From the NCBI GenBank assembly GCA_964036665.1, contig OZ038527.1, positions 17,940,221-18,004,220 of the forward strand: a DNA stretch of 64,000 bases, written 5' to 3'. This DNA comes from Gordius sp. MW1. Its lineage: Eukaryota > Nematomorpha > Gordioida > Gordea > Gordiidae. Position numbers and translations under genes: made by a program. Under the pieces are notes generated by a model that made no database searches, was not told the DNA's origin, and was given only the letters and a program-made list of their open reading frames with translations. Of the stretch, positions 2,517-64,000 are shown one piece after another (the stretch's first letter is position 1; the number at the start of each line of letters is the position of its first letter).

Positions 2517-3364
2517 GTGTGTTATCCTCCACCCCCTTACGTGTGAGTTATCTTAGTCTGTGGTGTTATCCGATAATTTACATATACGTCCCCCCCCCCA
2601 CACATACACACATAAGCGTGATTTTTAGCCCTATTTGTGATCAGTCACGATTTTTAGCGCCTTTAAGATATAAATAGTTAAAACGAGTTTTATTGCTTTT
2701 TGCCGGAGAAACAAAATACTTATGCTAAATAAAACAAAAAAAATAATGATCATCCCCCTCTACAAAAGTTAAAAAAAAAATATTTAGTACCCGATAATTT
2801 AGATTTTGTTTTAGTTCGCGATATATTCGCGGAACAATTATACGCGCGCGGACGTTTTATCGCGGAAAGTTTTAAAAAACTAAAATTAAATGAGTATTTT
2901 AAATTGGCGCCGGAATAAAGGTAAACGATACCCACCTTATCATTCGAAAAATTCGATTGAAACAACATATCCTAATTCCCGACCGAAAAACAATTCGTAA
3001 ATCGTGTCTCCGCGGGGTTATCATTTCGCCGGGTGTGGTATCCTCCACCCCCTACGTCCCATCCCTTTACGTGTGTGTTATCCGATAATTTATATATACG
3101 TCCCCCCCACACACATACACACATGCGCGTATACTCCTATTTATGATGAGTCACGATTTTTAGTGCCTTTAAGATAAAAATAATTAAAACGATTTTTATT
3201 GCTTTTTGCCGGAGAAGTAAAATACTTAAACAAATAAAAAATAATGATCATTACGCTCTACGAGTGATATAAAAAATGTGTAGTCCCCGATGATTTAAAT
3301 TTTGTTTAGTGCGCGATATATTTGCGGAACAATTACAGGCGCGCGGGCGTTTTATCGCGGATAG
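2517..3364. repeat. Direct duplication of a ~340-bp unit with a ~510-bp period
   Basis: A unit starting GTTATCCTCCACCCCC and ending CGTTTTATCGCGGA occurs at 2517-2868 and again at 3031-3364. The copies share the blocks TCCGATAATTTA, a C-run followed by ACACATACACACAT, TTGCTTTTTGCCGGAGAA and GCGATATAT. The 2869-3030 segment between them (GGCGCCGGAATAAAGG... to CCGCGGGGTTATCATT) is found again, split into two halves, around the Ginger1 insertions (6073-6101 and 9839-9965). No coding capacity. Confidence 0.75.
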
Positions 3365-3728
3365 ATTAATAAATAAACTCGTGGGAAGGGAAGGGGAGTA
3401 GGGGAAGGAAAGGTGGGACGACTCATCTATACTCCGTATAAACGTAGCATATTTGCTATGCAATTTATGGGCGAGAAAGGTAGGAAGGGGCGAGAATGCC
3501 TATAGGGGGGTATTAAATGCAAAATAATTAGTTATAGACCTTTGTAGGGGAGGGCATAAGGTAATTATCAATGTTAACCAATTCAAAAACGAAAAAAAAA
3601 TTTGATTTATTTGGCCAATGGTCATTTTTTCCATTGGTCAGTATCCTGCGGACGATCAAAAAGTCATATTATCAATGATATTAACAAGAACAAAATATTA
3701 ATTTAATTTAAAAAAAAAATAAAAATTT

Positions 3729-3812
3729 TGCCCTCTCCCGAGCTTGAACCAGGGATATCCAGGTCACCCTGTTTACAAGCCGTGCGCTATAACCCGTCAC
3801 ACCATGCCGGTA
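3729..3812 (-). other. tRNA-like (SINE-type) segment
   Basis: Read on the minus strand, the segment ends with a Pol III B-box-like GGTTCAAGCTC inside a plausible TpsiC arm, preceded by an A-box-like region near GGTGTGACGGGTTATAGC. The cloverleaf is imperfect and the segment lies inside a dispersed repeat, with a nearly identical copy at 61720-61802. It is therefore better read as a tRNA-derived SINE head than a tRNA gene. Confidence 0.5.
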
Positions 3813-4539
3813 TTAAAATAGTAGAAGTTATTATGTTATTTATATAGATAATGAAATAATAAAGTTCTGTTTTATGTTTAGAAAATCAATATATTTCATC
3901 GGTCAGTAGCCAGCGGACGGTCAAAAAGTCAAATTATCAATGGTATTAACAAGAACATAATATTAATTTAATTTTAAAGAAAAAAAAATTAAAATAAAAA
4001 TTCCTTTTAGTTTTAAAAGAGGGCTAAATTCTGAAACTACCCGCCCGATTCGCTCGAAACTTTACCCGTAGGTGCCCAGGGCGGCCAGGGGTAAAATAGC
4101 CTTTTCAGATTCCTAAAATACCTTTTCGTTTTAAAAATATCGGACATTTCCCGGCCACACGTGCGGTGTAATATCTATGACACGTAGAAAATTTTACTAA
4201 TTATATAAACTTACGCGCGCCATCTAATAAAGTACAATTCGTGTTTTAATAGTTTAATAGTAGATTGAATTTAATTAGAAAGAACGGGCTATGATTATAC
4301 CTTTGAAGGAGGTTTCGAATTTTGTGTTAGTTTCTATCAATATATTGTATCGTAAATTAGAATCTAATACCTATATTTTTTAACTATTACTTTTTAGGTT
4401 TTCTATGAAACAATCTATTTAAATGAAATGTATTAACCCATTAGTAAAATATATATGCATTTATAAGGTTAAAAATATATGTTACAATGTTGGCTGTCTG
4501 TTAGACCATCTATAATAAATTTTTAGGTTATATATAAAA

Positions 4540-5215
4540 TTTGGCCAATGGTCATTTTTTTTCATTGGTCAGTACCAACAGATACTCTATAAATCAATGA
4601 TAGCCAAAAAAAACGGAAAAAAAGGTTTTGATGCTCACTTTGGCCAATGGTCATTTTTTTCCATTGGTCAGCAGCCAGCGGACGGCCAAAAAGTCATATT
4701 ATCAATGGAATTAACAGGAACAATCATAAGAGTCAAAAAAAACGGAAAAAAAATTTCGATTCACAATTTGGCCAATGGTCATTTTTTTCCAATGGTCAGC
4801 AGCCAGGACACGGTAAAAGTGGATATAAATTAATAAGAGTCAAAAAAAACGAAAAAAAAATTTTCGAATCACATTTTGGCCAATGGTCATTTTTTTCCAT
4901 TGGTCAGCAGCCAGGACACGGTAAAAGTGGATATAAATTCATAATAGTCAAAAAAAACGAAAAAAAATTTTCGAATCACATTTTGGCCAATGGTCATTTT
5001 TTTACATTGGTCAGCAGCCAACGGACGGCCAAAAAGTCACAATAGCAATGGTAGTAACAGGAACAATCATAATAGTTAAAAAAAACGAAAAAAATAATTT
5101 CGATACACATTTTGGCCAATGGTCATTTTTTTCCATTGGTCAGCAGCCAGCGGACGGCCAAAAAGTCTTATTATCAATGTAGTAACAAGAACAATCATAA
5201 GAGTCAAAAAAAAAC
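4540..5215. repeat. Hairpin minisatellite array (107/128-bp monomers)
   Basis: Successive TGGCCAATGG starts lie at 4641, 4769, 4877, 4984 and 5113, giving spacings of 128, 108, 107 and 129 bp. Every monomer contains CCAATGG-(~10 nt)-CCATTGG, an inverted repeat able to form a hairpin, followed by GTCAGCAGCCA. Long monomers then carry GCGGACGGCCAAAAAGTC; short ones carry GGACACGGTAAAAGTGG. The array ends at 5213-5245 with a B-box-like motif (GGTTCGAATCC on the minus strand). The array stays open in one frame, which creates false ORFs. Confidence 0.9.
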
Positions 5216-5627
5216 TCCGGGATTCGAACCCACAAACTAGTAAAATTAATTAAAATTAAAAGTAAACAGCGTGAGAAGACATTCGGTGCGTGACAAGACA
5301 TTCGGTGCAAGACACCGAAGAGCGTGACAATATATAGATTCGGTGCAAGACATTCGGTAGCGTGACAAGACATCGGAAAATGGAAAGTGAGCTTATGATG
5401 AAACATAGACCCTTGTAGGGGAGGGCATAGGGTAATTATCAATGTTAACCAATTCAAAAACGACAAAAAAAATTTCGATTTATACTTTGGCCAATGGTCA
5501 TTTTTTTCATTGGTCAGTAGCCAGCGGACGGCCAAAAGGTCACATTATCAATGGTATTAACAAGAACAATATACTAATTTAATTTAAAAAAGAAATAAAA
5601 ATTTTGCCCTCTCCGGGATTCGAACCC

Positions 5628-5760
5628 ACATTAGTAAAGGCATAGGGTTTGGTAAGGGGCACAGGGACCCATATTAGTAAAGGCATAGGCTTTGGTAAGG
5701 GGCACAGGGACCCATGTCAGTAGAGGCGTAGGCCCTTGAGGAAAGGGCATAGGGTAATTA
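5628..5760. repeat. ~44-bp tandem repeat next to a B-box motif
   Basis: Three tandem units of the type ATTAGTAAAGGCATAGG...GGGGCACAGGGACCC follow a minus-strand B-box-like GGTTCGAATCC. The same arrangement recurs at 32560-32910 and 63620-63750, so it is a fixed part of the composite repeat. Confidence 0.7.
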
Positions 5761-6789
5761 TCAATGTTAACCTATTCAAAGACGAAAAAATACCATAAAT
5801 TGCATATAGCAATTAAAAATTTCGCTTTATTTGGCCAATGGTCATTATTTCATTGGTCAGTAGCCAGCGGACGGTCAAAAATTCATATTATCAATGGTAT
5901 TAACAAGAACAAAATATTAATTTAATTTAAAAAAATTAAAAAAAAATTAGTCCTCCCTGGCTTGAACCCGGGATATTCAGGTCACAAAGCTGGCGCCAAT
6001 AACTTGGTGGACGGACGACGGACGACGGACGGACAACCAAAAACGAGCCCATAAATTGCATAGCAATTAAAAATTGTATGAGTATTTTAAAGTGGCGCCG
6101 GTGTAAGGGTTTAGTTTAGAAGTCAACTAGGTAAAAATGCGCTTACACATGTCAATCACGATCAACTGACAGTGACAGATATACTGTCCTATCTTGACAC
6201 ACGTCAATTACGTTTATATAAGAAATATAATACTAAATTATTTGTAAATAAATATATTATGATATATATAATACTAAATTGTAAATAAATACATAATTAA
6301 TCGTAAATGAATATATTTTTTTAAATAAATTTGTTTTATTAAATTAATTGTGTTAATACTAAGATAATATTAAATTATTAGGGCTCTAATTGGCAAAACT
6401 TAATATATATATTATCATAATAAACTTTATGTACTATAAAATATATATATTATAATAAACTTTATGTAGCTATGAAATATAGTTTCTACTAAATAACTTA
6501 TTAAATAGAATTGTGTTAATAACTTATAAAATTTAGATCTGTTCTGTGTTAATAGTTAAGATAATAATAAATTATTAGGGCTCTAATTGGCAAAACTTAA
6601 TATATTTATATCATAATAAACTTTATGTGGCTAAAAATATAATTTCTACTAAATAATAAATGTGGTAATAAATTTAATGATAAAGTAAAGTACTAATTTT
6701 GTCACATGTCTCTCTTTATATTTACTTCGATAAATTTATTAGTTAAAATCATATATATATATATATATGTATGTATAAATGATCATAAA

Positions 6790-7478
6790 CACATATAGTT
6801 ATTTCAATGGAAAAGTAATCAATAACAACCAACATGCAAATGTTGCCTTGTTCTGTTTTAGGCAACATGCATAGATCTATTCCAACATGTTTTTAATTCC
6901 AAGGGGTTGGAATCAGAGCCACATTATGAAGAACTGGTGTGACCTTATCAATCCTAGCCATGTGTGTCTGACATGCATGACAAGCCCCAACTTATTCTCG
7001 ACATCTTTTGTCATGTTAGGCCACCAATATCTACTCATAACATATAAGAACACAGTCAAACATTATATACAATGTAAAAGCAATTATTCACAAAATTATT
7101 TAAACTTTAAATTGTATAAACTCTCAGCTATCTTTTCTTGAGTAGGATTAAACCCAAGATGGCCCCCCAAGCTTTTAGCATGTATGCTATCAGTTAGGCC
7201 ATCATGGTGTAATTTGATAACATTCATAATCTCTTCCTTTGTCATCACCACCCTTGTCAACATTTCTAAAGATTACAACTTACAGCAAATTTTAATAATA
7301 TGATACCTGTCTTAATACCTCCTATGTTTTTCACTCTTTTGTGATATAATTGCTCATTTTTAATAGTAAAAAGAGCTGCCTTTCTTTTGAGATAGGCCCT
7401 CTGATTCTTATCATATATAACAGGCATCAGTCCTTCCTTTATATACTTAATTATCTCCTCAAAATGATATTTTGACAT
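6790..7478 (-). pseudogene. Ginger1 integrase-like transposase, broken
   Basis: From 7478 downward the minus strand encodes MSKYHFEEIIKYIKEG and KRKAALFTIKNEQLYHKR. After frameshifts come an H2C2 zinc-binding region (GGHLGFNPTQEKIAE, RYWWPNMTKDVE, CHACQTHM) and the start of an integrase core (VGIDLCMLPKTEQGNI then VVIDYFS), which contain the first catalytic Asp. The order is that of Gypsy/Ginger integrases. Stops near 7085 and frameshifts inactivate it, and the rest of the DDE core is absent. Its location inside a TGT...ACA/CCGG element argues for Ginger1 rather than an LTR retrotransposon. Confidence 0.75.
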
Positions 7479-7557
7479 CTAAAAGAATAAAATAAGTTAC
7501 ATAATAATATTAAAAATAAATTATATTGATTAAATATAAAAATTTAGTGCAAAGTGA

Positions 7558-7865
7558 AATAACTTAGCATTGTTTTTAAGATACTTTGCATTAAATTTTT
7601 ATATCTTATCAATCTACATATAAATGTGTTATAAATAATTGACTCGTGCATTTAATAAAAACTTCAAATTTTGGAAAAATCTTGGCTTTTAAAATAACTT
7701 AGGATTGTTTTTAAAATACTTTGCATTAAATTTTTATATCTTATCAATATACTTATAAATGTGTTATAAATAACTGACTCATGCATTTAATAAAAACTTC
7801 AACTTTTGGAAAAATCTTGGCCTTTACAATAACTTAGCATTGTTATTAAAATACTTTCTTAATTT
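7558..7865. repeat. 135-bp tandem repeat (~2.3 copies) in Ginger1 element 1
   Basis: AACTTAGCATTG-type starts occur at 7561, 7696 and 7831, exactly 135 bp apart, with shared blocks ACTTTGCATTAAATTTTTA and TTTGGAAAAATCTTGG. It lies between the transposase start and the right terminus of element 1. Confidence 0.8.
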
Positions 7866-8384
7866 AATTATTTATAAAAGCATTTTTTACTTGTTTTTAG
7901 AATACTTGTTTTGAGGCGGATTTTTATAAAAGAGCTGCATATTAAGCTAATTATTTAAAACATTTTTTACTTGTTTTGGGATTTTGAGGCGGATTTTTTT
8001 AATGCACAATTCTCACGATTGTTTTTCTATTGCCTTTTTGGTACGCAAGCCTATCAAAATTAGTGGTTCCCCACGTGGTGATAACAATCACGCTAATCAT
8101 TTTTAGCTATTTCAATTTTGACCAATTATATGTAGGCGCACTTTTATCTAGGCGCACAATTAGAACCCTACACCGGTGTAGCGTATGAGACGACGTAGCG
8201 TTTAAGATCGCGTAATCGTCAATCACGCCTCCACATTCGTTGAAAACACGAAAAAAGTACTTGTTTTGTCAATCACGAGATTTTTTTGAGTAACATGATT
8301 GGTTCAAATTTCGGAAAAACATACATCTTATTTTACGTAATGACATTCATTTGAGATCACGTAATTTGCAAACTTTTTTACCAA

Positions 8385-8935
8385 TATAATTTTGTATTTT
8401 GTAGTAAGTAAGTTCCTAAGATTATAAATATAACTAATGCAAAAGTTTGTTATTTACCTTTTTAGATGTATGCTTCTATAATTGTTGAAATTGTATTAAA
8501 CTTTGTATTTTGTAATAAGTTAGTTCCTAAGATTGTAAATATAAGCTAATGCAAAAATTTGTTATTTACCTTTTTAGATGTATGCCTTTATAATTGTTGA
8601 AGTTGTAGTAAACTTTTTATTTTGTAATAAGTAAGTTCCTAAGATTATAAATATAAGCTAATGCAAAAGTTTGTTATTTACCTTTTTAGATGTATGCCTT
8701 TATAATTGTTGAAATTGTAGTATTTTGTAATAAGTAAGTTCCTAAGATTATAAATATAAGCTAATGCAAAAGTTTGTTATTTACCTTTTTATATGTATGC
8801 CTTTATAATTGTTGAAATTGTAGTATTTTGTAATACGTAAGTTCCTAAGATTATATATATAAGCTAATGCAAAAGTTTGTTATTTACCTTTTTAGATGTA
8901 TGCCTTATAAGTCCCTAATATTATAAATATTAACT
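8385..8935. repeat. 103-112-bp tandem repeat, five copies
   Basis: AGTTCCTAAG occurs at 8411, 8522, 8634, 8737 and 8840, each followed by ATTATAAATATAAGCTAATG and TTTGTTATTTACC. The first two periods are about 111 bp and the later ones 103 bp after a short deletion. The array occupies the same relative place in element 2 as the 135-bp repeat does in element 1. Confidence 0.85.
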
Positions 8936-8977
8936 ACTTAATTTATACTTTGATTAATTTAGCATTTATTTAATAGA

Positions 8978-9055
8978 ATGGAAGAATATGGTTTTGCTGA
9001 GATTATGGATTATATGAAAAATGGGACTATTCCTATATTTGATAGTTGTTTATAA
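8978..9055 (+). pseudogene. N-terminal remnant of a Ginger1 transposase
   Basis: A 25-codon frame, MEEYGFAEIMDYMKNGTIPI followed by FDS and a stop, aligns with the start of the element 1 transposase (MSKYHFEEIIKYIKEGLMPV). Nothing recognisable follows, so only the N-terminus survives. Confidence 0.6.
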
Positions 9056-9304
9056 AATCTTTTTAATTGTTACTATACTATTTTTACTTTATATTTACTT
9101 TAAATAAAATATATTATTCTTATTTCAATGTCTAATGATATTTGACAAAACATGGTTTTAATATGCCTTTTTCCAATAAAGATGATATGTAATGGCTAAA
9201 AATATATATTTATTAAAATAATAATATCTATATCATTATTTTATATTATAACAGCTTTATCAGATGCAAAATAAATTTAATAAGTTAAATTTATATAGAT
9301 TGGA

Positions 9305-9451
9305 CAGTGGCGTAGCCAGACGGGGGGGGGGAACGGGAAATCCCCCCCCCCCCGAAAAAAAATATCAAATGTTTATTTTGTTTTTTTAAATAATGTTACA
9401 AAAAAAATTTATTATTTCCCCCCCCCAGAGAAAATCCTGGCTACGCGCCTG
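9305..9451. mobile_element. 147-bp hAT-type MITE with a perfect 8-bp target duplication
   Basis: Ends CAGTGGCGTAGCCAG and CTGGCTACGCGCCTG form an imperfect inverted repeat. Both sides are flanked by the identical octamer AGATTGGA (9297-9304 and 9452-9459). The middle is G and C runs with AT-rich filler. Eight-base duplications are typical of hAT elements. The intact duplication suggests a fairly recent insertion into Ginger1 element 2. Confidence 0.8.
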
Positions 9452-9838
9452 AGATTGGATCACTTATAAAAGAATTAAAACCAAATATATGACACCTAAG
9501 ATCATCAGGGATTATAAGATCCTTTATATAAAATAATTATTTTTAAAAACTTAATACATATAAATTGAATTTGTTTATAATGGTTAAAATTAAATATTTA
9601 ATGAAGCTTAATTTATATTATGTTAAACCTTTATTAAAAAAATATTTAATGAACTTAATTTATATTATGTTAAACCTTTATTAAAAAATCTTAACAAAAT
9701 TGTTGTATAACCACAATTTTTGATTGACATTTATACCAGCCTATAGTAATCTTTTTTGCAATTATAGTGCAGAAATACATGATTGACGTGTTTGATTGAC
9801 TTCCGCGATATCAAACCATACGCGAATTCAACATTACA

Positions 9839-9965
9839 CCGGAATAAAAGTAAACGATACCCACCTTATCATTCGAAAATTCGATTAAAACACCGAAACA
9901 CCATATCCTTATTCCCGACCAAAAAAAAATTCGTAAATCGTGTCTCCGCGGGGTTATCATTCCGT
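9839..9965. repeat. Right half of the host repeat split by the Ginger1 pair
   Basis: CCGGAATAAAAGTAAACG through CCGCGGGGTTATCATT matches 2910-3030. Its missing left half is at 6073-6101. Confidence 0.8.
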
Positions 9966-10031
9966 CGAAACCCAATAGCTATTAGTAATTTTTGTAAATT
10001 AAATAATCTTAAAAAGGTAATTAAAAAATAA

Positions 10032-11137: not shown

Positions 11138-14100
11138 TTGTTATGTATTATAATTAATTATAGGGTTAAAAAAGTTGAGAGGTTACATAGACTGTCAACA
11201 AAAGTGTGTTTTGTTTGTAAAAAACAGGGTCATTTAATTAAAAATTGTAGGAGAAATGGGATGTGTCGCATAAATAGTTTCAATAGAAATTTAAATTATG
11301 GTAATAATTTTGATGGGACTTGGTTAAGGGATAGTAAGAGAACTAGAGGTGATAATTAAGTGAGCGATAGGCTAGAGTATGAACCCGAGGTAAATCCGTC
11401 ATATGTTAGGTGTTGGAGCGGGTGTGCAGGTAATTGTAATAAGAAGGGTAGATTGAATCAGAGAAATGTCAGCGATTGACTAGAAAGTTGTAATTGTAAG
11501 AAACAGCTTAAAAATGTAAATAGTTGTTCTTCTATTCTTTTACCGTCAAATTTTATCAATAATCGTAATTAACGCGCGTTCACACTTTATCATTTTTTTA
11601 ATGCACCCATTACGTCGCGTCTAACATTGGTAATATAATAAATGGTATTGATAAAAAAATTTTGCTAGATACCGGTTCGTCCATTACTTTGATGGCTGAG
11701 TCAGAATTTAAAAAGATTTAGCAAAACAGGTAAATGGGGATTGTATCCAATTAACTAGTTGTACCTGTGTCTGGGTTCACGCAGGTGAAGAAATAATGCG
11801 TTTAAAGTTATATCTTGTGAAGAAAAGGGTGGAAAATATTTTACGATGGTCTTGGATTTGCAAATTGGGTCCGTTAAATAATTGGTGGGGTGTGTGTGAT
11901 AGGCTTTGCGATAAACCCGTAATTAGGAAGGTAGGAAATATAATCTACCCCCGTGTTAATTGCCCATTTTTGGTTAGGTGTCAATTGACTATAGACGGAA
12001 CTCCAAAGGAGAGAACTCGTTGTTGACGGCTAGGTATAAAAGTCCCTCTGTAAATCCTGGTAGGGCTTGGGGTGCTAAATATAATATTTTTTGTGTACAA
12101 AAGGGTTCAAGAGATCAAATTCAGTAGAAATATGCACCAATATTTGAAGATAGGAGGTTGCTTAAAGGAAGGTATTTTTCCATCAAACTTAAGCATGCTC
12201 AATTTAGGTTTTGCCCGGCGAGTCGTGTTTCATTATTGTGGCGTGAACAGGTACAATAGGTTTTGGATAAATGGCTAGCCGACAGCGTAGATACCGTTAA
12301 ATTTTCCGAATGGGATACCCCATTGGTTCCAGTTAAGAAAACGGATGGGTCACTTAGACTATGCGCGGATTATAGGATAACGGTCAATAAATATGTGGTC
12401 GACGTCAAATACCCATTACTCAAATTAGAATGTATTTTATCTAATTTGCGTAGTGCGAATTGTTTTTTTTAAGATAGACCTTGCAAGCGCCTATTTACAA
12501 TTAAAGGTTGAATGCAAGACGGCGTTAGTTTTAACTATTAACACTAACCAAAGGATGTTTGCCTTAAAGATTACCTCTTTCGGTCTTAGTGTATCAGCGC
12601 CGATTTTTTCAAATAACCATGGCTTCCTTGTTTGTTAACATGGAGGGTGTAATTTATTATTTAGACGATATCTTGGTTACTGGATCTAATACAAACGAGC
12701 ATGACCAACATCTAGACATGGTTTTAAACATAAAAAAAAATAAAGGTCTACGGTTATCAGCAAAAAATGTGATTTTTGTGCGGAGGAGATTACGTATTTG
12801 GGACACGTATTAGGTGAAGATTCAATTCGTCCAGTATTAAGCAAAATTAAAGATTTACAGCAGTTGAAAGCGCCGTTTAATAAAAAGGAATTTAAGCCAT
12901 TTTTGGGAATGATAACTATTATATTCGGTTCAATCCTGAATTTAATCGGTGGTCAGGTTCTTTAAACAAATTTTAAAGAGAACGTGCAATTTAAATGGAC
13001 ACAATTTGAGAACGATTTGACATGTTGCGCGAAACTCTATTAAAGAAACCAGTATTTGTTTGCTTTGACGCTTCAAAAGAGCATGTTTTGGTAGTCGATG
13101 CATCAAATAATGGTGTGGGAGGTGCATCATGTCAGCTTGAGGATAAAGTTGAGTATCCGGTAATGTATTTCGCCAAGAAATTAAATAAGACTGAGCTTAA
13201 CTACTTTGTTATAGAGAAAGAAGCTTTGGCTATGGCGTATGGGCTGAAACGGTGTAGAATTTTTGATAGTTAAAAGATTTATCGTCTATATAGACCATAA
13301 ACCATTGATAGGCTTGTTTCGGAAAGATAACAACGAATTGTTGATGTCCCCCAGATTGCAGCGTTGATTATTAGTGTTAGACACTAACGTTGATTTATTG
13401 TAAGGGAGAGGATAACGGATTAGCCGATGTTTTATCTAGGTAAGGTCCTGAAAATATTAGCGCGGAGGAGTCTCCATTGGTATGCAAAATAATTTGCGGT
13501 AACGTAATAAATGCCTTAAAAATCGTAGATTTGGAGGGCATCTCCGCTGCTTGCAACACTGATAGAAATACTAGTGTGGTCAAGAAAATATTTATTGGAG
13601 AGGAAACGCAAGGAGAGGTCCCGCAGCAGTGTAAAAATGCGCTGTGTGAGCTGTATATCGAAGACGAGAGCAGATAAGGTTGTTATACCCGATGTACTTA
13701 TACCAGCAATTTTAGAAATACATTTTGGTACGGTTAAAACGAAGGCTTTCGCCAGGCAGTATGTTTAGTAGCCTGGAATTTCGAAAAACATTGAAGAGCA
13801 GATTAGACGATGTGATTTATGCAAGTCTAATGCTCCAATGCATCTTAGAAATAAAGCTGGGAGATGGTCTCGACCTAGGGAACCTTGGGAAAGGGTACAC
13901 GTCGATTTTTTTGAATGGGGAAAGAAAAACTATATAATAGTAGTTGATGCATTTTCCGGTTGGACGGAATTTCAGAAAATTAATAACACGCCTGCTAGAG
14001 TGACCATAAATTTTTTAAAGAACCTGATAAGTTCTTATGGTTTTCCTAGTATGCTTGTCACAGACAACGGTAAAGCGTTTGTCTACGTTGAATTTAAGAC

Positions 14101-14200
14101 TTTTTGTCAGACGTGGAAAATAAAGCATGTGTCAACACAGCCTTATCATCCGAGTTCCAATTGTCAGATGGAACGGTATGTGGGAATAGTGAAGAAGTAG
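11138..14200 (+). pseudogene. Ty3/Gypsy-type retrotransposon gag-pol, decayed
   Basis: Domains appear in Gypsy order but in shifting frames. There is a Gag zinc knuckle CFVCKKQGHLIKNC (11210-11250) and a protease motif LLDTGSSITLMAESEF (11660-11705). Reverse transcriptase runs from about 12080 (LKEG, WLADSV, PLVPVKKTDGSLRLCADYR, then YLDDILVTGS at 12655). RNase H contains VVDASNNGVGGASCQLEDK and IEKEALAMAYGLKR (13090-13260). The integrase core is at 13838-14200 with HVDFFEWG, VTDNGKAF and QMERYVGIVKK; Asp and Glu of the last two are separated by 35 residues, as in active integrases. Many stops and frameshifts inactivate it. I could not find long terminal repeats. This is an ordinary genomic retroelement. 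Confidence 0.9.
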
Positions 14201-15314: not shown

Positions 15315-16690
15315 TCATTTGGGCAAATAAGTAGAGCTAAAAAAGCTACAATATGTCTGATCGGGATCTGTAATATTGCTATTACTTTTTATAAAACGAA
15401 TGTCGGTATTAAATTGAGAAACATAAACTAAATGTCGGATCTCACGTGGTGAGTAACGATTCATTTTTGTCTGAAAAGCATAAATTAAAGGTTTGTGGTC
15501 CGTTAATGTGATAAAATTGCGCCCCTCAAGTATGTGTCTGAAACGTTTGATCGCCAGATAAATAGCTAGTAATTCCCGACTAAATGTACTATATCGTGTT
15601 TGAGCTGATAGTAATTTATGAGAAAAAAGGCTAAGTTCTTGTTTATTATTACTTACCTGATGCAGAACTCCCCCGACTGCTATGTTCGAAGCATCTGTGG
15701 TTAATGTTAACAAACTGTTTGGTTTCAAAAACGCTAAATTAGTTGCTTTAATTAAACTTTGTTATAAAAGATTAAATGAATTCATTTTTGCCTCCGTTAT
15801 TTTAAAATATTTTCATCATTGTTTATCAAATCAGTGAGTGGTTTAGAAATTGAAGCACAATTTGGTATTAAACTTCTGTAAAAATTCACTATACATAAAA
15901 AGAATCATGTTCAAAATAACGACAGTATCATAATAACGACAACCATAAAAAATTAGTATTTAATATATTAAGTATGTATAAATTGCTTTTATATTATTAC
16001 ATATAGTTTATTATATACACTTAATTATATAGCACCCTTTACCAGACTAACTTGTAATACTTAATTATATAATTTAGTATTGAATATATTTCAAGCTATA
16101 CTCCTCATGGAATGCACAATTATATATCACTTAATAAGATTAAGTAATTTTATAATAACTTTTCTTGTGTTTAATATATTATAATAAGTATGTAGAAATT
16201 GCTTATATATAATTCTATATATTTATTATATACATATAATGGTTGTCAGTATTATGATACTGTCGTTATTTTGAACAGAAGCGCATAAAAAACGTTTCAA
16301 ACTCATCATCGTTTGAGAAATTGAAAAATCATTGCATCGATTTTGTTTGATAAGGGGCGTATGCCACTTTGAACAACTTGATAACCGAGAAAGTTGAATG
16401 TCTATACACCTAAAGAACATTTTGACAGATTTATACGAATACCGTTTGTTTCTAACCGTTTAAAAACTGTTAAAAGATGTAATCTGTGTTCATGTTCTAA
16501 GGAACTGGCGATAAGTATATCATCGAAGCATACACAAAGTCCAAGCCATTTAAAATTTCATCTATGGGGCGCTGAAATATCTGTGCTGCATTCCGCAGTC
16601 CAAAAGGCATTCTTAAAAATTAAAAAAGCCCAAAAGGTGTCGTAATTGCGGTTTTCGGGATGTCCTCCGGTGCCATCAAAATTTAATGGT
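15315..16690 (-). pseudogene. Second Ty3/Gypsy pol fragment, reverse orientation, split by a MITE
   Basis: On the minus strand the region reads RT motifs (PEDIPKTAITTPFGLF, then LRMPFGLRNAAQIFQRPIDE and LNGLDFVYA, about 16690-16480). Thumb debris follows, and then a 137-codon RNase H frame at 15315-15728 (LTTDASNIAVGGVLHQ, SRELLAIYLAIKRFRHILEG, LTDHKPLIYAF). The motifs differ from the forward element, so this is another Gypsy lineage. A 0.38-kb insertion at 15902-16283 interrupts it. Nothing remains of gag, protease or integrase. Confidence 0.85.
15902..16283. mobile_element. ~380-bp MITE inserted in Gypsy RT
   Basis: TGTTCAAAATAACGACAG and onward (15908-15946) is repeated inverted at 16241-16277 over nearly 40 bp with few mismatches. 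CATAAAAA flanks both sides (15894-15901 and 16284-16291), an apparent 8-bp target duplication, although the outermost six bases do not pair. AT-rich interior without ORF. Confidence 0.7.
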
Positions 16691-44235: not shown

Positions 44236-45092
44236 ATTTTTTTCATTGGTCAGCAGCCAGGACAGGGTAGAGGTGGTTATAAATTCATAATAGTCAAAAA
44301 AACAATTTTCGAATCACATTTTGGCCAATGGTCATTTTTTTCATTGGTCAGCAGCCAACGGACGGCCAAAAAGTCATAATAACATTGGTAGTAACAGGAA
44401 CAATCATAATAATTAAAAAAAAACGAAAAAAATAATTCTGATTTACATTTTGGCCAATGATCATTTTTTCCATTGGTCAGCAGCCAACGGACGGCCAAAA
44501 CGTCATAATAGCATTGGTAGTAACAGGAACAATCATAATAATCAAAAAAAAACGAAAAAATAAACTTGGATTCACATTTTGGCCAATGGTCATTTTTTCC
44601 ATCGGTCAGCACCCAACGGACGGCCAAAAAGTCATAATAGCAATGGTAGTAACAGGAACAATCATAATAAGCGAAAAAAAAACGAAAAAATAAACTTGGA
44701 TTCACATTTTGGCCAATAGTCATTTTTTCCATTGGTCAATAGCCAACGGACGGCCAAAAAGTCATAATAGCAATGGTAGTAACAGGAACAATCATAATAG
44801 GCGAAAAAAAACGAAAAAATAAACTTGGATTCACATTTTGGCCAATGGTCATTTTTTTCATTGGTCAGCACCCAACGGACGGCCAAAAAGTCATATTAGC
44901 AATGGTAGTAATAGGAACAATCATAATAGTCAAAAAAACCCGGGATTCGAACCCAAAAACTGGTTAAATTAACAAAAATTAAAAGTAAACAAAACAAGAC
45001 ACTCGGTGCGTGACATCCACGTTCGGTGCGGACGCCGAATAGCGTGACAAACAAAATGGAAAGTGAGCCCATAAATTGCATAGCAATTAATA
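44236..45092. repeat. Hairpin minisatellite array with terminal B-box and hairpin
   Basis: Six to seven tandem units of the CCAATGG...CCATTGG minisatellite, mostly the long monomer type (about 118-125 bp, CCAACGGACGGCCAAAA). They are followed by a minus-strand GGTTCGAATCC at 44943-44960, TTCGGTGCG words and the terminal GCCCATAAATTGCATAGC. It lies just beyond the 3' end of STT3B. Confidence 0.88.
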
Positions 45093-48300: not shown

Positions 48301-51300
48301 CTATTATGTAGCGTTCCCTTCAATCCCAACAAAGATGTAATCGTATATAATACCATTCAGCATAATAAAGATATTTTTTGAGAGAATCTCAAATCTTACA
48401 TTAATTAGATTAAGTGTTATTAAACAAAAAGAGGACAAATACTTTGGCCGAATTTACAATTAAAGGACTTAAACTAAATTGATTTATTCTTCCGTCAGTA
48501 ACGAAGTCTTTTCTTTTATGGTTATTCTACACTTATGTTTTTCTTCAAGCTTTCTTTGAATTTTCATAGAGTATTTTACAATTTTTTAAATTTAGACATT
48601 TGCTGTATTTAAATAAAATATACATCTAATGCTTAGACATTGAACAAATAATTGTGTTAAATACATTAAATATTAAGCCTGCATAGACTAATGGATCAGG
48701 TGTATTTGAATTGCATTAAAAGGGGTGGCATTAAATTATAATTTAACATTATTAACAAAATCCGAGTTAAAATCTACATATTCAATTTTGATTGGGGTCT
48801 CATATATTCAAATTTATACTTAGAACGCTAAATTCACTTAAAACTTCTCTAATTTTTCCCACAATCAGCCGGATTCTTGTCCATAAAAGTACAAATGTTT
48901 AAACACCTAATCTCTAAAATATAATTCGAAAACTTCTATTTTATAGATGTGTTCATGGCTGATAATAAAAATTCCCATTTAAATCAAGATTTCGTCAGTC
49001 CCAAAAAGTTTTTCCCTAATCCTTCCAATGTTTAACATAAGCTTATAGACAGAGAATGGAAGCTCACAACCAAATAAGTTTAACAATTTTCAGGCTAGAG
49101 TCGTGCATTCAAATCGATTTGTCCTATTTATGTAAAATTGTATAAGTTGTGCCTCTACAGTCATCACAGTAAAAATAAGGAGCAAAATTATGAATTTGGG
49201 ATAAAAATGTACCCGTCGCTGCCGTAAGAGGCTAGAACGACGCTGGGGCTGGAGTAGGCGTTCGAAGTGACCCAGGTGGAGTGGACGGCAAACATGAGGA
49301 GTAAGAGAACTAGTACGAGTACGGTGAGGCCTTTAATATTGAGACCGAGGCTGTCGTCTTTGTCCGATTTCAAGAAACTCGGATTTATTTTGGGGATCTT
49401 GCCCGCCTACCACGCGAAATAGAATAAATACATTTTTGTAAAATTAACTTAATAGCTACTGAGAGAGAGATTTAAATTATATAAATTTTTAAAGTTCGTA
49501 GTTTTTTTAAATATTTGTCCTTACAAAAAACATTATAATTAGGGGGTAAAAACTTTAAAAAATTTATCGAATTTAGCATAATTCGCAAATTTATCGAGAA
49601 CCGATTTTTAACCTCTTATCACCCGCAACGCAAAGAGTAGTGTTTCAAATGCGTTCTAACTTTCAATGACATATTTAGTTTAAACATCCTCACAATTATA
49701 TATAGATGAGAGAAGGCTGACCAACAACGTGGAATTATTATAAAATGCTTATAAGTCGATAGGCGGGATGAGCAAAATTCCTCACCTTATCGTACAAATT
49801 GCGTTTAGAGGAGGGAGAGGTCGGAGAAGGGGCTTGGTGCCCCTTATGCCCCACCACAACTTTTTTCCCTTTGCCGCCATTCTTTTCTTCGGACGCATCC
49901 TCGCTCGAACTACTACTAGTAGCGGCGGGCTCGAGTTCTCGGTCGAGCGTAGTAGACTTGCCGGTCACTTTCATGAGATCCTCCGTTTCGTAGTCCTCGA
50001 GCGGAGCTAACAAAGAGCCAACGCCTCTTTTAGCCGCTGTAGTAGGAGCGTCTAGCGCTGGAGCAGCAGCCTCGTCCTTGAGGTATTGGTCGAAGAGCGT
50101 TGAAAAGGCCACGCTAGCGAGCACACAAATCACGGGGGTCAGCGTCAGCATCAAGCGCACCATGACGCCCGCGAAATAGACGGCGCTCATGGCGAACAGG
50201 ATAACTAAAAGCGTTTTTAGGTGTAAGCAAATTTAGTTTTTGTTATTTAATTATTTCCGGATAATAATTTTAAATTGGACATGGGCGTAGCCAAGGGGGG
50301 TGGGGGCGGCTGCCCCCCTCTAAATCCAAAAAATTGGTGAAATTTATTGAAATTATGGCTAAAATTTCGAAAAATTATCATCTTGCCCCCCCCCTAAATC
50401 ATTTTTGTCCCCCTCTAATTCCACTGCTGGCTACGCCCATGAAAATGGAACTGTAGCAATCCATCGATTTTAACTAGGTAAATTTGAGTTCGGCTAAAAA
50501 AAAATTCTGTACGTTAATTTTTGATTAAGCTATTCAACAATGAGGTGATTTAAATTTATCATTTTTTTCTTTGGTATCTATTAAAAGGGCGGTAGTGATT
50601 TTAGTTCAATCTAAAACTACCTGTTCTATAACAACAAGTTTTAAACAAAATAAAGACAAAATTTGAAGAAATTAGGTTTAAGAAGTCGAATAAACATATT
50701 TTTAAGAACGATTAATTCAATTTTAAAATGTTTAATAAAAGTACTTTCCATTAACTATTTGCCTGCCTAATAAATATTCATTCATTAAGCTCAACTAAAA
50801 CCTTTTCGTGTGTTAATTAAAAAAAACTCGGGCCTTCGGCCCTCGTGGGAAGGGGGAGAAGGGAAGGGAAGAGGGGAAGGGAAGGGAAGAGGGGAAGGGA
50901 AGGGGGGACGACTCATCTGTACTTCGTATAAATGTATCATATTTGCTATGCAATTTATGGGCGAGAATGCCTATAGGGGGGTATTAAATGCCTAATGATT
51001 AATTAATTATTTATACAAATTTTCCATTATAGGCAAAATGTAATATAGGCAAAATGTAATATAGGCAAGGGTTAGGGTTAGATTTAGTGTTTGCTTCTAG
51101 TTGCGTATTACATTAGTTTTTATGGCCTTTAGTGATTATGGGTCTAACAAACTTTATATTATAAAACAACACAATGTTAAGAATTTGCAGAATTGTTGGG
51201 AGAAATTTTTTGTTGAATTTGAACAATTTTTAATTAAAAAAATCAAAAATTTGGCCAATGGTCAGTTTTTCTCTATTGGTCAGTACCAACAGATACTCTA

Positions 51301-54300
51301 TAAGTCAATGATAGCCAAAAAAAACGGAAAAAAAAATTTTGATGCTCACATTGGCCAATGGTCATTTTTTTCCATTGGTCAGCAGCCAGCACACGATAAA
51401 AAACGATATAAATTCATAAGAGTAAAAAAAACGAAAAAAAATTTTCGAATCACATTTTGGCCAATGGTCATTTTTTCCATTGGTCAGCAGCCAGGACACG
51501 GTAAAAGTGGATATAAATTCATAATAGTCAAAAAAAAAAACGAAAAAAAAGTTTTCGAATCACATTTTGGCCAATGGTCATTTTATTCCATTGGTCAGCA
51601 GCCAGCGGACGGCCAAAAAGTCATAATAGCAATGGTAGTAACAGGAACAATCATAATAGTCAAAAAAAAAACGAAAAAAATAATTTCGATTCACATTTTG
51701 GCCAATGGTCATTTTTTCCATCGGTCAGGAGCCAGCGGACGGCCAAAAAGTCATAATAGCAATGGTAGTAACAGGAACAATCATAATAGTCAAAAAAAGC
51801 GAAAAAAATAATTTCGATTCACATTTTGGCCAATGGTCATTTTTTTCATTGGTCAGCAGCCAACGGACGGCCAAAAAGTCTTATTATCAATGATAGTAAC
51901 AAGAACAATCAGAAGAGTCAAAAAAAACTCCGGGATTCTAACCCAAAAACTAGTTAAATTGCATAGCAATTAGAAGTAAACAACTTTTATTTATGTTTAT
52001 TATATAACATTGGTCAGCAGCCAGCGGACGGCCAAAAAGTCATAATAGCAATGGTAGAAACAGGAACAATCATAATAATCAAAAAAAACGAAAAAAATAA
52101 TTTCGATTCACATTTTGGCCAATGGTCATTTTTTTCATTGGTCAGCAGCCAGCGGACGGCCAAAAATTCTTATTATCAATGATAGTAACAAGAACAATCA
52201 TAAGAGTCAAAAAAACTCCGGGATTCTAACCCCAAAACTAGTTAAATTGCATAGCAATTAAAAGTAAACAACTTTTATTTATGTTTATTATATAACTAGT
52301 TAAATTGCATAGCATTAAAAGTAAAGAACTTTTATCTATGTTTATTATATAACAAAAACTAGTTAAATTGCATAGCAATTAAAAGTAAACAACTTTTATT
52401 TATGTTTATTATATAACTAGTTAAATTGCATAGCAATTAAAAGTAAACAACTTTTATTTATGTTTATTATACAATAGATAATTTAACAAATCTTATATAT
52501 AACACACCGAGGGAGAGAGAGATGAGGGGTGGGGCACCTCTTATGCATGAGATAGAGATGAGGGGTGGGGCACCTCTTTCTCATGCATATAGAGCCCTGC
52601 ACGGGCCGTCCGAGGCCCGGCCCGAGTTCGGCCCGGCCCGACGGGCTTTCGGGCCGAACTCGGGCAGAATTGTATAAAACAATCGGGCCTCGGGCTCGGG
52701 TCGGGCCTCGGGCTCGGGTCGGGCCTCGGGCTCGGGTCGGGCCTCGGGCTCGGGTCGGGCCTGATGCGGCTGCCCGACCTGAGGCCCGAGCCCGGCCCGA
52801 ATTGAATTAAAGCAAATTAATCTTTTATAAAATAGGATTTAAATCAACTCAACTCAATATTAATAATTATCTTCGCGCAGCCTACATTATATAGCTTCTA
52901 AACTTCAGCTTATTTCCCTTGTCTAATATAATATAACTGACCTGAATTGGAAATCCTATTATATTTTATAGAATCATAGTAGCTGTTACAACTTTAGAAA
53001 TAAGAAAAGTAACTATTTCAAAAAGTTTTTTATTTGAAACTGTTAAAAATTTATTTTATAAAGTTAAATTTTTAGCTTTAAATGATTAGCTGAATAAACT
53101 CTAACGAGTGGAAACGGATTTTTTATTTCAAATTCATTCTAGTTGTAAATTAGGAGTAGGTGAAAAAAATTTCGGTAATATATTTTTTTAAAAATTTTAT
53201 TTAGAAAATCGGGTCGGGCTCGGGCTCGGGCCTAAAATAAAAAAGTCTTTCGGGCTCGGGCCGGGCTCGGGCAAAATAAAAATTGAGAAGTCGGGCTCGG
53301 GCCGGGCTCGGGCCGAAGAAATTTCATTTTGCAGGGCTCTACATGCATAGCAATTAAAAAGCGATAACCTAATATACCCAATGCAAATAGATAGGGAGGA
53401 CAACGGACAACGGACGGACAACGGACAACCAAAAACGAGCCCATAAATTGCATAGCAATTAATTCATTTTACAGCCTCGCCTCTCCAAATATATGTTTGC
53501 TTTAATCAAAACTAAGTAACACGCTATAAATCAGGCTTTTTTTTAGTAAATATTTATTTTTTAACGATGCTTGATTATTGTTCTAAAAAAGAGAAAAGGG
53601 TAAATAAGGTTGTTATGAAGGGAAGAAAGCGTGAAGCAAAAACGTAATCGATAAAACGGTTTGATGAGCCTCGTAGTTCTTGCAACAACGTAAAATAACC
53701 TCTACCTGTATTATCCTCAACCTTACACATCATTGGGTATCACATGCGCCCTATAAATCATCGTATGATTGAGCCACTGTAATTTCACAGGGCCAAACAC
53801 AAAATTCTCCCCTATATATAAAATCCTGAAAATTACACGTAAAAAGCAGGGGTCCCGAACCCGAACCCGGTAAAACCCGATATTTTACAGAACCCGAACA
53901 CAAACCCGAATCCATTTTTAAAAATACCTTTAAAACCCAAACCCGAACCTGATGAATACAAATAAGGGTTCGGGTTTTTAATTTAAAAATATATTGTGAA
54001 TTGAATATCTCAGTTTTCTCTATCATGACAATTTAACGAAAACCATAAGATTGTAATTTCAATATTTTTATGTTTCCACCATTTTTCATTCATTAATACT
54101 AATTATCTCAAGAATTATTTGTAAGTATTATATATATAATTGATATGATATAATTTCTTGAACCCGAACCTGTACCCGAACCCAATTCCTTAAACCCAAA
54201 CACGAACCCGATTTCAAAATTTATGCCAAACCCGAACACGAACCCGATTTTATTTTGGGCGGGTTCAAACCCCTGGTAAAAAGTAAACGTAACGCCCAGC

Positions 54301-62529: not shown

Positions 62530-63215
62530 TATATATAAAATTTGGCCAATGGTCATTTTTTTTCATTGGTCAGTACCAACAGATACTCTATAAATCTGAT
62601 AGCCAAAAAAAACGGAAAAATATTTTTTGATGCTCACTTTGGCCAATGGTCATTTTTTTCCATTGGTCAGCAGCCAGCGGACGGCCAAAAAGTCATATTA
62701 TCAATGGTATTAACAGGAACAATCATAAGAGTCAAAAAAAACGGAAAAAAAATTTCGATTCTCAATTTGGCCAATGGTCATTTTTTTCCAATGGTCAGCA
62801 GCCAGGACACGGTAAAAGTGGTATAAATTCATAAGAGTCAAAAAAACGAAAAAAAAATTTCGAATCACATTTTGGCCAATGGTCATTTTTTTCCATTGGT
62901 CAGCAGCCAGGACACGGTAAAAGTGGATATAAATTCATAATAGTAAAAAAAACGAACAAAAAAATTTTCGAATCACATTTTGGCCAATGGTCATTTTTTT
63001 CCATTGGTCAGCAGCCAACGGACAACCAAAAAGTCACAATAGCAATGGTAGTAACAGGAACAATCATAATAGTCAAAAAAAACGAAAAAAATAATTTTGA
63101 TACACATTTTGGCCAATGGTCATTTTTTTCCATTGGTCAGCAGCCAGCGGACGGCCAAAAAGTCTTATTATCAATGGTAGTAGCAAGAACAATCATAAGA
63201 GTCAAAAAAAACTCC
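62530..63215. repeat. Hairpin minisatellite array in copy B
   Basis: Same monomer order as 4540-5215: a divergent first unit, long, short, short, long, long, with the CCAATGG...CCATTGG hairpin in each, ending at a minus-strand GGTTCGAATCC. Confidence 0.9.
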
Positions 63216-64000
63216 GGGATTCGAACCCACAAACTAGTTAGATTAATTAAAATTAAAAGTAAACAGCATGAGAAGACATTCGGTGCGTGACAAGACATTA
63301 GGTGCAAGACACCGAAGAGCGTGACAATATATAGATTCGGTGCAAGACATTCGGTAGCGTGACAAGACATCGGAAAATGGAAAGTGAGCCCATAATGAAA
63401 CATAGACCCTTGTATGGGAGGGCATAGGGTAATTATCAATGTTAACTAATTCAAAAACGAAAAAAAATTTCGATTTATACTTTGGCCAATGGTCATTTTT
63501 ATCATTGGTCAGTAGCCAGCGGACGATCAAAAGGTCACATTATCAATGGTATTAACAAGAACAATATATCAATTTAATTTAAAAAATAAATAAAAATTTT
63601 GCCCTCTCCGGGATTCGAACCCACATTAGTAAAGGCATAGGGTTTGGTAAGGGGCACAGGGACCCATATCAGTAAAGGCATAGGCTTTGGTAAGGGGCAC
63701 AGGGACCCATATCAGTAGAGGCGTAGGCCCTTGTAGGAAAGGGCATAGGGTAATTATCAATGTTAACCTATTCAAAGACGAAAAAATACCATAAATTGCA
63801 TATAGCAATTAAAACTTTCGCTTTATTTGGCCAATGGTCATTTTTTTCATTGGTCAGTAGCCAGCGGACGGTCAAAAATTCATATTATCAATGGTATTAA
63901 CAAGAACAATATATTAATTTAATTTAAAAAAAATAAAAAAAAAATTCGTCCTCTCCTCTCGAACCCGGGATATCCAGGTCACAAAGCTGGCGCCAATAAC

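Follow-up and report, generated by a model that had tools for sequence, protein, structure and literature searches.

Ginger1-type transposons of Gordius sp. MW1 share CCGG target sites far in excess of chance and probably target each other's ends

In Drosophila, double insertions of P elements can share one 8-bp site, so that two elements occupy one target with a common duplication; such pairs belong to the same family, and the P transposase is unrelated to that of Ginger1 elements. The insertion sequence IS30 of E. coli, according to the available sections of PMC9333248, inserts either into hot-spot sequences or next to the inverted repeats of resident copies, and its dimers of abutted ends, with a 2-bp spacer, arise in a copy-out-paste-in process through circles. 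Ginger1 elements, as described in the available part of Bao, Kapitonov and Jurka (2010, PMC2836005), have TGTNR ends, terminal inverted repeats of ~40–270 bp and 4-bp duplications of CCGG (75 %) or CCGT/ACGG (24 %), and encode a Gypsy-like integrase with an H2C2 zinc finger and a DDE core, a GPY/F motif and a C-terminal OTU or Ulp1 domain. The Ginger2/Tdd elements have a Gypsy-like integrase and TGTNR ends as well, but their target is the AT-rich RTATAY and not the CCGG encountered here (same source and part). The present study concerns a window of 64,000 nucleotides from the nematomorph Gordius sp. MW1 (assembly GCA_964036665.1, contig OZ038527.1, positions 17,940,221 to 18,004,220, forward strand), in which two Ginger1-type elements, here named A and B, share a single CCGG, and the 212 Mb of the genome (12 contigs) in which such shared sites were counted.

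Sites shared by two elements occur in this genome in an excess far beyond chance, which extends across many CCGG-bounded families, and Ginger1-type elements probably target each other's ends, as IS30 does, by a mechanism that we infer. The likeness to IS30 is one of behaviour, not of kinship, and consists in the excess of insertions at resident inverted ends, the denominators of which are estimated here; IS30, in the sections of PMC9333248 available, is bacterial and uses a 2-bp spacer and circles, whereas the junctions described here have a 4-bp CCGG spacer and join mixed families. The elements themselves are ordinary Ginger1-type transposons, and what is new is the scale of the stacking preference. 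No report of Ginger1 stacking at a shared CCGG was found in the open-licence papers searched, which is a weak negative. The available part of PMC2836005 describes neither such stacking nor such arrays, the word 'tandem' occurring 0 times in its main text, and arrays with shared duplications are likewise not described in the available parts of PMC2213677, on a Medicago Harbinger element, and PMC4744444, on Genome ARTIST.

In the window, CCGG was read at 6098..6101 (left duplication), 8173..8176 (common to A and B) and 9839..9842 (right duplication), exactly at the bases given by the original prediction. Element A, a shortened and decayed member of family VI with coding remnants on the minus strand, occupies 6102..8172 (2071 bp, TGTAAGGG...CCCTACA), as judged from its ends, inverted termini, relatives and a longer copy at locus L093. 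Element B, a Ginger1-type member of family I on the plus strand, delimited by its ends, inverted termini and many partial or full copies, occupies 8177..9838 (1662 bp, TGTAGCG...CATTACA). The pair interrupts a plus-strand target repeat, the left half of which lies at 6078..6097 and the right half at 9843..9967; the left half amounts to only ~24 bp because other copies start at about the same place. An uninterrupted copy, also on the plus strand, lies at 2891..3031, with its CCGG at 2910, and the flanks joined across the A–B pair align to 2885–3030 (TATGAGTATTTTAAA[G/T]TGGCGCCGGAATAAA...), as had been predicted. The repeat comparison that identified all three segments was extended with a paralogue display and, for the right half and the intact copy, a genome search. 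The target repeat has 13 genomic matches, 7 of which (window copy included) span the CCGG position without an insert, so that intact copies exist elsewhere in the genome too. Five paralogues compared in the same register, three of them on C4 and one each on C5 and C6, cross the insertion point without an insert, one having CAGG at the site and one a four-base gap just to its left; a further copy on C3 (L024), uninterrupted in the genome search, was left out of these five.

All four termini of A and B read TGTA inwards (TGTAA, TGTAG, TGTAG and TGTAA), which fits TGTNR. When the first 50 bp were aligned, anchored at the end, with the inverted last 50 bp, A scored 33 and B 34, values reached by 0 of 2000 shuffles keeping TGTA in either case; the ends of A scored only 0 and 4 against those of B, and the two are therefore different elements. 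This test was run after a local alignment of 150-bp ends had failed to set A and B apart from internal controls (28 for each, not above the controls), from which it follows that these terminal repeats are imperfect and of limited length. The predicted inverted termini thus hold in the end-anchored comparison and do not stand out in the longer local one.

Two TGTA...TACA elements that share one CCGG form the junction word TACACCGGTGTA, which occurs 64 times in the genome compared with 6 times for the reversed word. Ginger1-type ends, recognised with a library of 18 end sequences, were present on both sides in 42 of the 59 sites read (15 loci, 35 sites, with two at one locus, and 9 others), and the lowest side score among these 42 was 28, whereas the best of 500 random sequences scored 19.5. 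Because end type IX is known from one of these junctions (L065) and a one-base variant, a strict both-sided count is 41. Among the remaining 17 sites, neither side was recognised in 2 and one side in 15; the latter include three sites (L087–L089) resembling local duplicates of one junction, and L078, whose partner matches III_R over the first 14 bases and was left out of the 42. Counts per strand are 1476 and 1482 for the word CCGGTGTA and 842 and 886 for its reversed word, from which ~1230 Ginger1 ends adjoining CCGG were estimated, or ~1470 with a background derived by hand from the two unrecognised junctions. With 200,000–300,000 CCGG sites, random choice of CCGG predicts 1.3–2.0 junctions with Ginger1 ends on both sides, and 7–11 palindromes would be predicted from all CCGGTGTA words together.

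The share was also determined per end. Rows with 12 bases before CCGG were collected for three end types, by patterns that miss ends carrying mutations and any flank whose base at −12 is G. With at most two mismatches allowed, a Ginger1 end lay across the CCGG in 7 of 51 rows for I_R, 12 of 69 for II_L and 9 of the 100 listed (of 105) for III_R, or 28 of 220 listed ends (12.7 %) together, and 24 of 220 when IX and TGTCAGG, for which junction flanks are the sole source, are removed. Random or shuffled flanks match at 0.08–0.17 %, and the share expected from random CCGG choice is about 0.3 %.

Stacking extends beyond pairs. On C7, six ends in a row form the chain II-III-II-III with CCGG, CAGG and CCGG between the elements, the last III lying in the orientation opposite to that of a tandem copy; a search of two small stretches did not find the outer ends of elements one and four. 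On C5, elements of families VIII, IV and VI share two CCGGs (the outer end of VIII was not seen), and on C2 the end TGTCAGGTTATA adjoins II, the same end being found elsewhere across CCGG from II_L and III_R. Pairing of families is near random: the 42 junctions comprise 30 pair types compared with 32.4 expected, the commonest of them seen three times, and same-family opposite-end pairs number 5 compared with 3.8 expected. Identical-end pairs are missing (0 compared with 3.7 expected, P 0.017; the uncounted L078 would be one), perhaps through instability or loss of long palindromes. The related CCGG-bounded pairs for which a genome search had been proposed are thus represented by these junctions and by chains of three and four elements.

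The simplest alternative is plain chance: all CCGG sites are alike, and pairs arise merely since Ginger1 elements bear CCGG at both ends. The elements do sit in CCGG and do carry it at both ends, but the 42 junctions and 64 palindromes exceed the respective expectations so far that random choice fits only with ~9,000 or fewer CCGG sites instead of ~250,000, and this explanation is very improbable. A more serious alternative is that a small share of CCGG sites, accessible through open chromatin, lack of methylation or tolerance by selection, takes the insertions with no recognition of ends. Insertion may depend on CpG methylation, and Ginger1 flanks do recur in some repeats (AGGGGAGA followed by CCGG, 7 of 220). 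Such heterogeneity would nevertheless have to explain why sites with the same octamer are used unequally. Among TACACCGG sites that are not Ginger1 ends, 14 of an estimated 1484–1728 have a Ginger1 element across (the 15 one-sided junctions minus L078, local duplicates kept). Of the Ginger1 ones, estimated at 1230–1474, 84 are shared if only the 59 junctions read are counted and 91 after scaling to all 64. Use outside Ginger1 ends is an estimated 6–9 times lower, and the rate for CCGG in general is 0.25–0.29 %. Nor are the ends regionally clustered. A local control started from a list of 100 ends, covering C1 and a part of C2, of which 72 could be assigned and 28 were dropped: 14 of the 100 rows contained a repeat with CCGGTGTAATGTGCGACAAG and variants, which always has AT before CCGG and was set aside as unrelated, and a further 14 were left without an end type. 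The 72 recognised ends are dispersed with a median spacing of 298 kb, and 5 are shared by flank, compared with a single unshared neighbour pair within 10 kb, pairs belonging to one element or to one shared chain not being counted. With the neighbour count doubled for missed types, the comparison is 5/72 against 4/1786 (P 8e-6). Site heterogeneity is therefore judged unlikely.

Pairs might also be ready-made, two ends being first joined over a 4-bp spacer and the joined pair inserted as a unit by its outer ends. The CCGG between the ends resembles a joint of two inverted repeats, a joint with zero spacer exists in family VI (C8:6342616, L019), and IS30 joins the ends of distant copies (PMC9333248, available sections). 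Against this, pairing is near random, with three occurrences of the commonest pair type, the C7 chain ends in an element oriented oppositely to its tandem copy, and A and B differ in similarity to their own relatives; formation of the junctions as ready-made pairs is regarded as improbable. Assembly artefacts, or recombination between dispersed copies at CCGG, could account for local duplicates such as L087–L089, but homologous exchange between members of different families would need more than 4 bp of identity, and the window pair lies within one target repeat with matching halves, so that this origin is scarcely credible.

The explanation that we favour, and consider reasonably probable as a whole, is that A and B are sequential insertions and that a CCGG abutting any resident Ginger1 terminus is much preferred to CCGG in general. 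One element, probably A, would have inserted at the CCGG of a dispersed repeat, duplicating it, and the other, probably B, would later have inserted at one of the two CCGG copies of A. The Ginger1 transposase would thus insert at CCGG generally, and far more readily at a CCGG adjoining a resident terminus of any family, where a transposase bound near the resident end may draw in the incoming complex; each insertion would create two further such sites, so that short mixed arrays could grow. We infer both the insertion order and the role of bound transposase. That A preceded B is suggested by similarity, a weak indicator of age: over 1658 bp, B shares 99.5 % identity with another copy (L002), and alignments of A longer than 500 bp with the other loci compared reach at most 95.4 %. 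The original prediction that the duplication of a first element was re-used by a second agrees with the 42 junctions and the chains, the sequential order itself being our interpretation. Its suggestion that a re-created target could build arrays likewise agrees with the chains of three and four, and needs to be changed in that re-use is far above random choice, not merely possible. More doubtful, and put at slightly less than even odds, is the wider proposal that Ginger1 transposases have a dual specificity, for any CCGG and, far more strongly, for CCGG at the terminus of any family, and that the resulting mixed, self-extending arrays make them a eukaryotic counterpart of IS30 with an integrase of the retroviral/Gypsy kind.

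A common signal near the ends is a candidate basis for such recognition. The word GTCAAT, the best among the 6-letter words compared, occurs in bases 5–130 of 9.2 of 17 end types (summed shares) compared with 0.3 in bases 200–325, and is possibly a common transposase-binding site by which the transposase of one family sees the ends of another. Several points weigh against end recognition. About half of the end types lack GTCAAT in this region, which lowers our confidence in the whole explanation. Single insertions show a weak context preference that happens to fit TACA: among 192 unshared flanks, T at −1 was present in only 6 % and purines at −3 in 71 %, so a mild effect of context exists. Outside Ginger1 ends, use of TACACCGG sites is ~3 times that of CCGG sites overall, and context therefore accounts for part of the excess. 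The local-control list excludes end types such as I_L, II_R and III_R owing to the last letter (H) of its pattern, and the strict comparison within the list is weaker (2/72 against 2/~1786, P 0.008). Furthermore, the end library was partly drawn from the junctions themselves, the number of CCGG sites was extrapolated from 78 in the 64-kb window, the number of Ginger1 ends (about 1230–1470) is an estimate, and the case as a whole is built on sequence comparison within one genome.

The assignment to Ginger1 is supported by L093 (C1:4829900–4834050), a 4.0-kb longer relative of A with CCGG at either end, whose inverted 50-bp ends reach a score attained by 2 of 2000 shuffles. Its minus strand encodes, in separate frames, an Integrase_H2C2 domain (1.8e-10) and an OTU domain (3.1e-5), both above the cut-off, and DDE-core pieces below it (rve 7.2e-6, rve_3 3.1e-4); the letters IGPYKI (LPSWIGPYKIAS), a GPY/F candidate, were read by eye in a piece without a model match. 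Relatives of A are spread across the genome (their counts are lower bounds), and an OTU domain (5.4e-6) adjoins a family IV end at L039; OTU was not seen in A or B. Sequence A matches L093 at 102–177, 2673–3427 and 3779–4082, which leaves out ~178–2672, so that A lacks the greater part of the coding region. On the minus strand of A there remain, apart from its termini, a putative N-terminal transposase remnant at 7305..7478 (...YLKRKAALFTIKNEQLYHKR..., L093-like by eye), the two halves of an H2C2 zinc finger at 7120..7272 and 6955..7038 (Pfam Integrase_H2C2, E 0.0011 and 0.00027, both below the cut-off) and, by eye, a remnant at 6802..6876 resembling the start of the L093 DDE core. By these comparisons A derives, in shortened form, from a 4-kb Ginger1 transposon of ordinary kind. 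Element B, in which 103–112 bp tandem units (repeat family D3) occupy 8377..8928 on the plus strand, looks like a non-autonomous Ginger1-type element: the frame list contains no open frame of 120 aa in it, no family search of B having been made. The predicted TGT...ACA ends, CCGG duplication and Gypsy-like integrase agree with the available part of PMC2836005, the first two in the window pair and the H2C2, DDE-core pieces and OTU in L093, the difference being the shortening of A and the failure to find a frame in B. The prediction that the elements lie head to head has little meaning, because B has no coding frame found and A and B belong to different families.

Further observations concern the ends and their surroundings. 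At L019 (positions 1500/1501), amid a cluster of family VI pieces, the left end of one family VI element is joined to the right end of another with no bases and no CCGG between; a circle or dimer may have left the two ends so joined, or the CCGG may have been lost. At L015 (position 1283), CCGG TGTAAC precedes the TGTAAGGG end of a family VI element, and the six letters resemble those with which a family IV end begins, such as might stay behind after excision. At C2:20147479, CCGG-G-CCGG parts two family I ends, which are therefore side-by-side sites and not one shared site. Ginger1 elements have landed repeatedly at CCGG preceded by AGGGGAGA (7 of 220 flanks), and its words sit inverted and uninterrupted at 1545–1570 and 2449–2474 of the window. 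Two further lines were not used. The age of partners, judged from divergence to the column majority of 300-bp ends, differed by at least 5 points in 13 of 26 pairs, and was set aside because subfamily structure and rearranged copies inflate the difference. As for depletion of CCGG inside elements as self-protection, no claim is made: only II stands out (0 compared with 11 expected), A, B, III and IV having 0 compared with 0.4–0.6 and VI 2 compared with 2.3, with one copy each. Elsewhere in the window, copies of a short repeat, TTTGGCCAATGGTCATTTTTTTCCATTGGTCAG, whose inverted core resembles CCAAT, lie at 3577–5944, with others seen by eye at 44277–44735, 51101–51811 and 62835–63290, and open frames at 13772–14200 (plus strand) and 15315–15761 (minus strand) resemble, by eye, portions of a Gypsy-like retroelement that encode integrase and RNase H.

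Gypsy-type integrases have been studied with respect to their guidance by chromatin factors. If the stacking of Ginger1-type elements on resident ends is as proposed, a DNA transposon with a Gypsy-type integrase would home on the ends of its own kind, choosing its target by terminus recognition, and the origin of mixed transposon arrays would be explained. Such arrays would constitute a natural safe harbour, in which elements landing on each other spare genes, and whether the end targeting of bacterial IS30 is a wider property of this group of enzymes would become testable.

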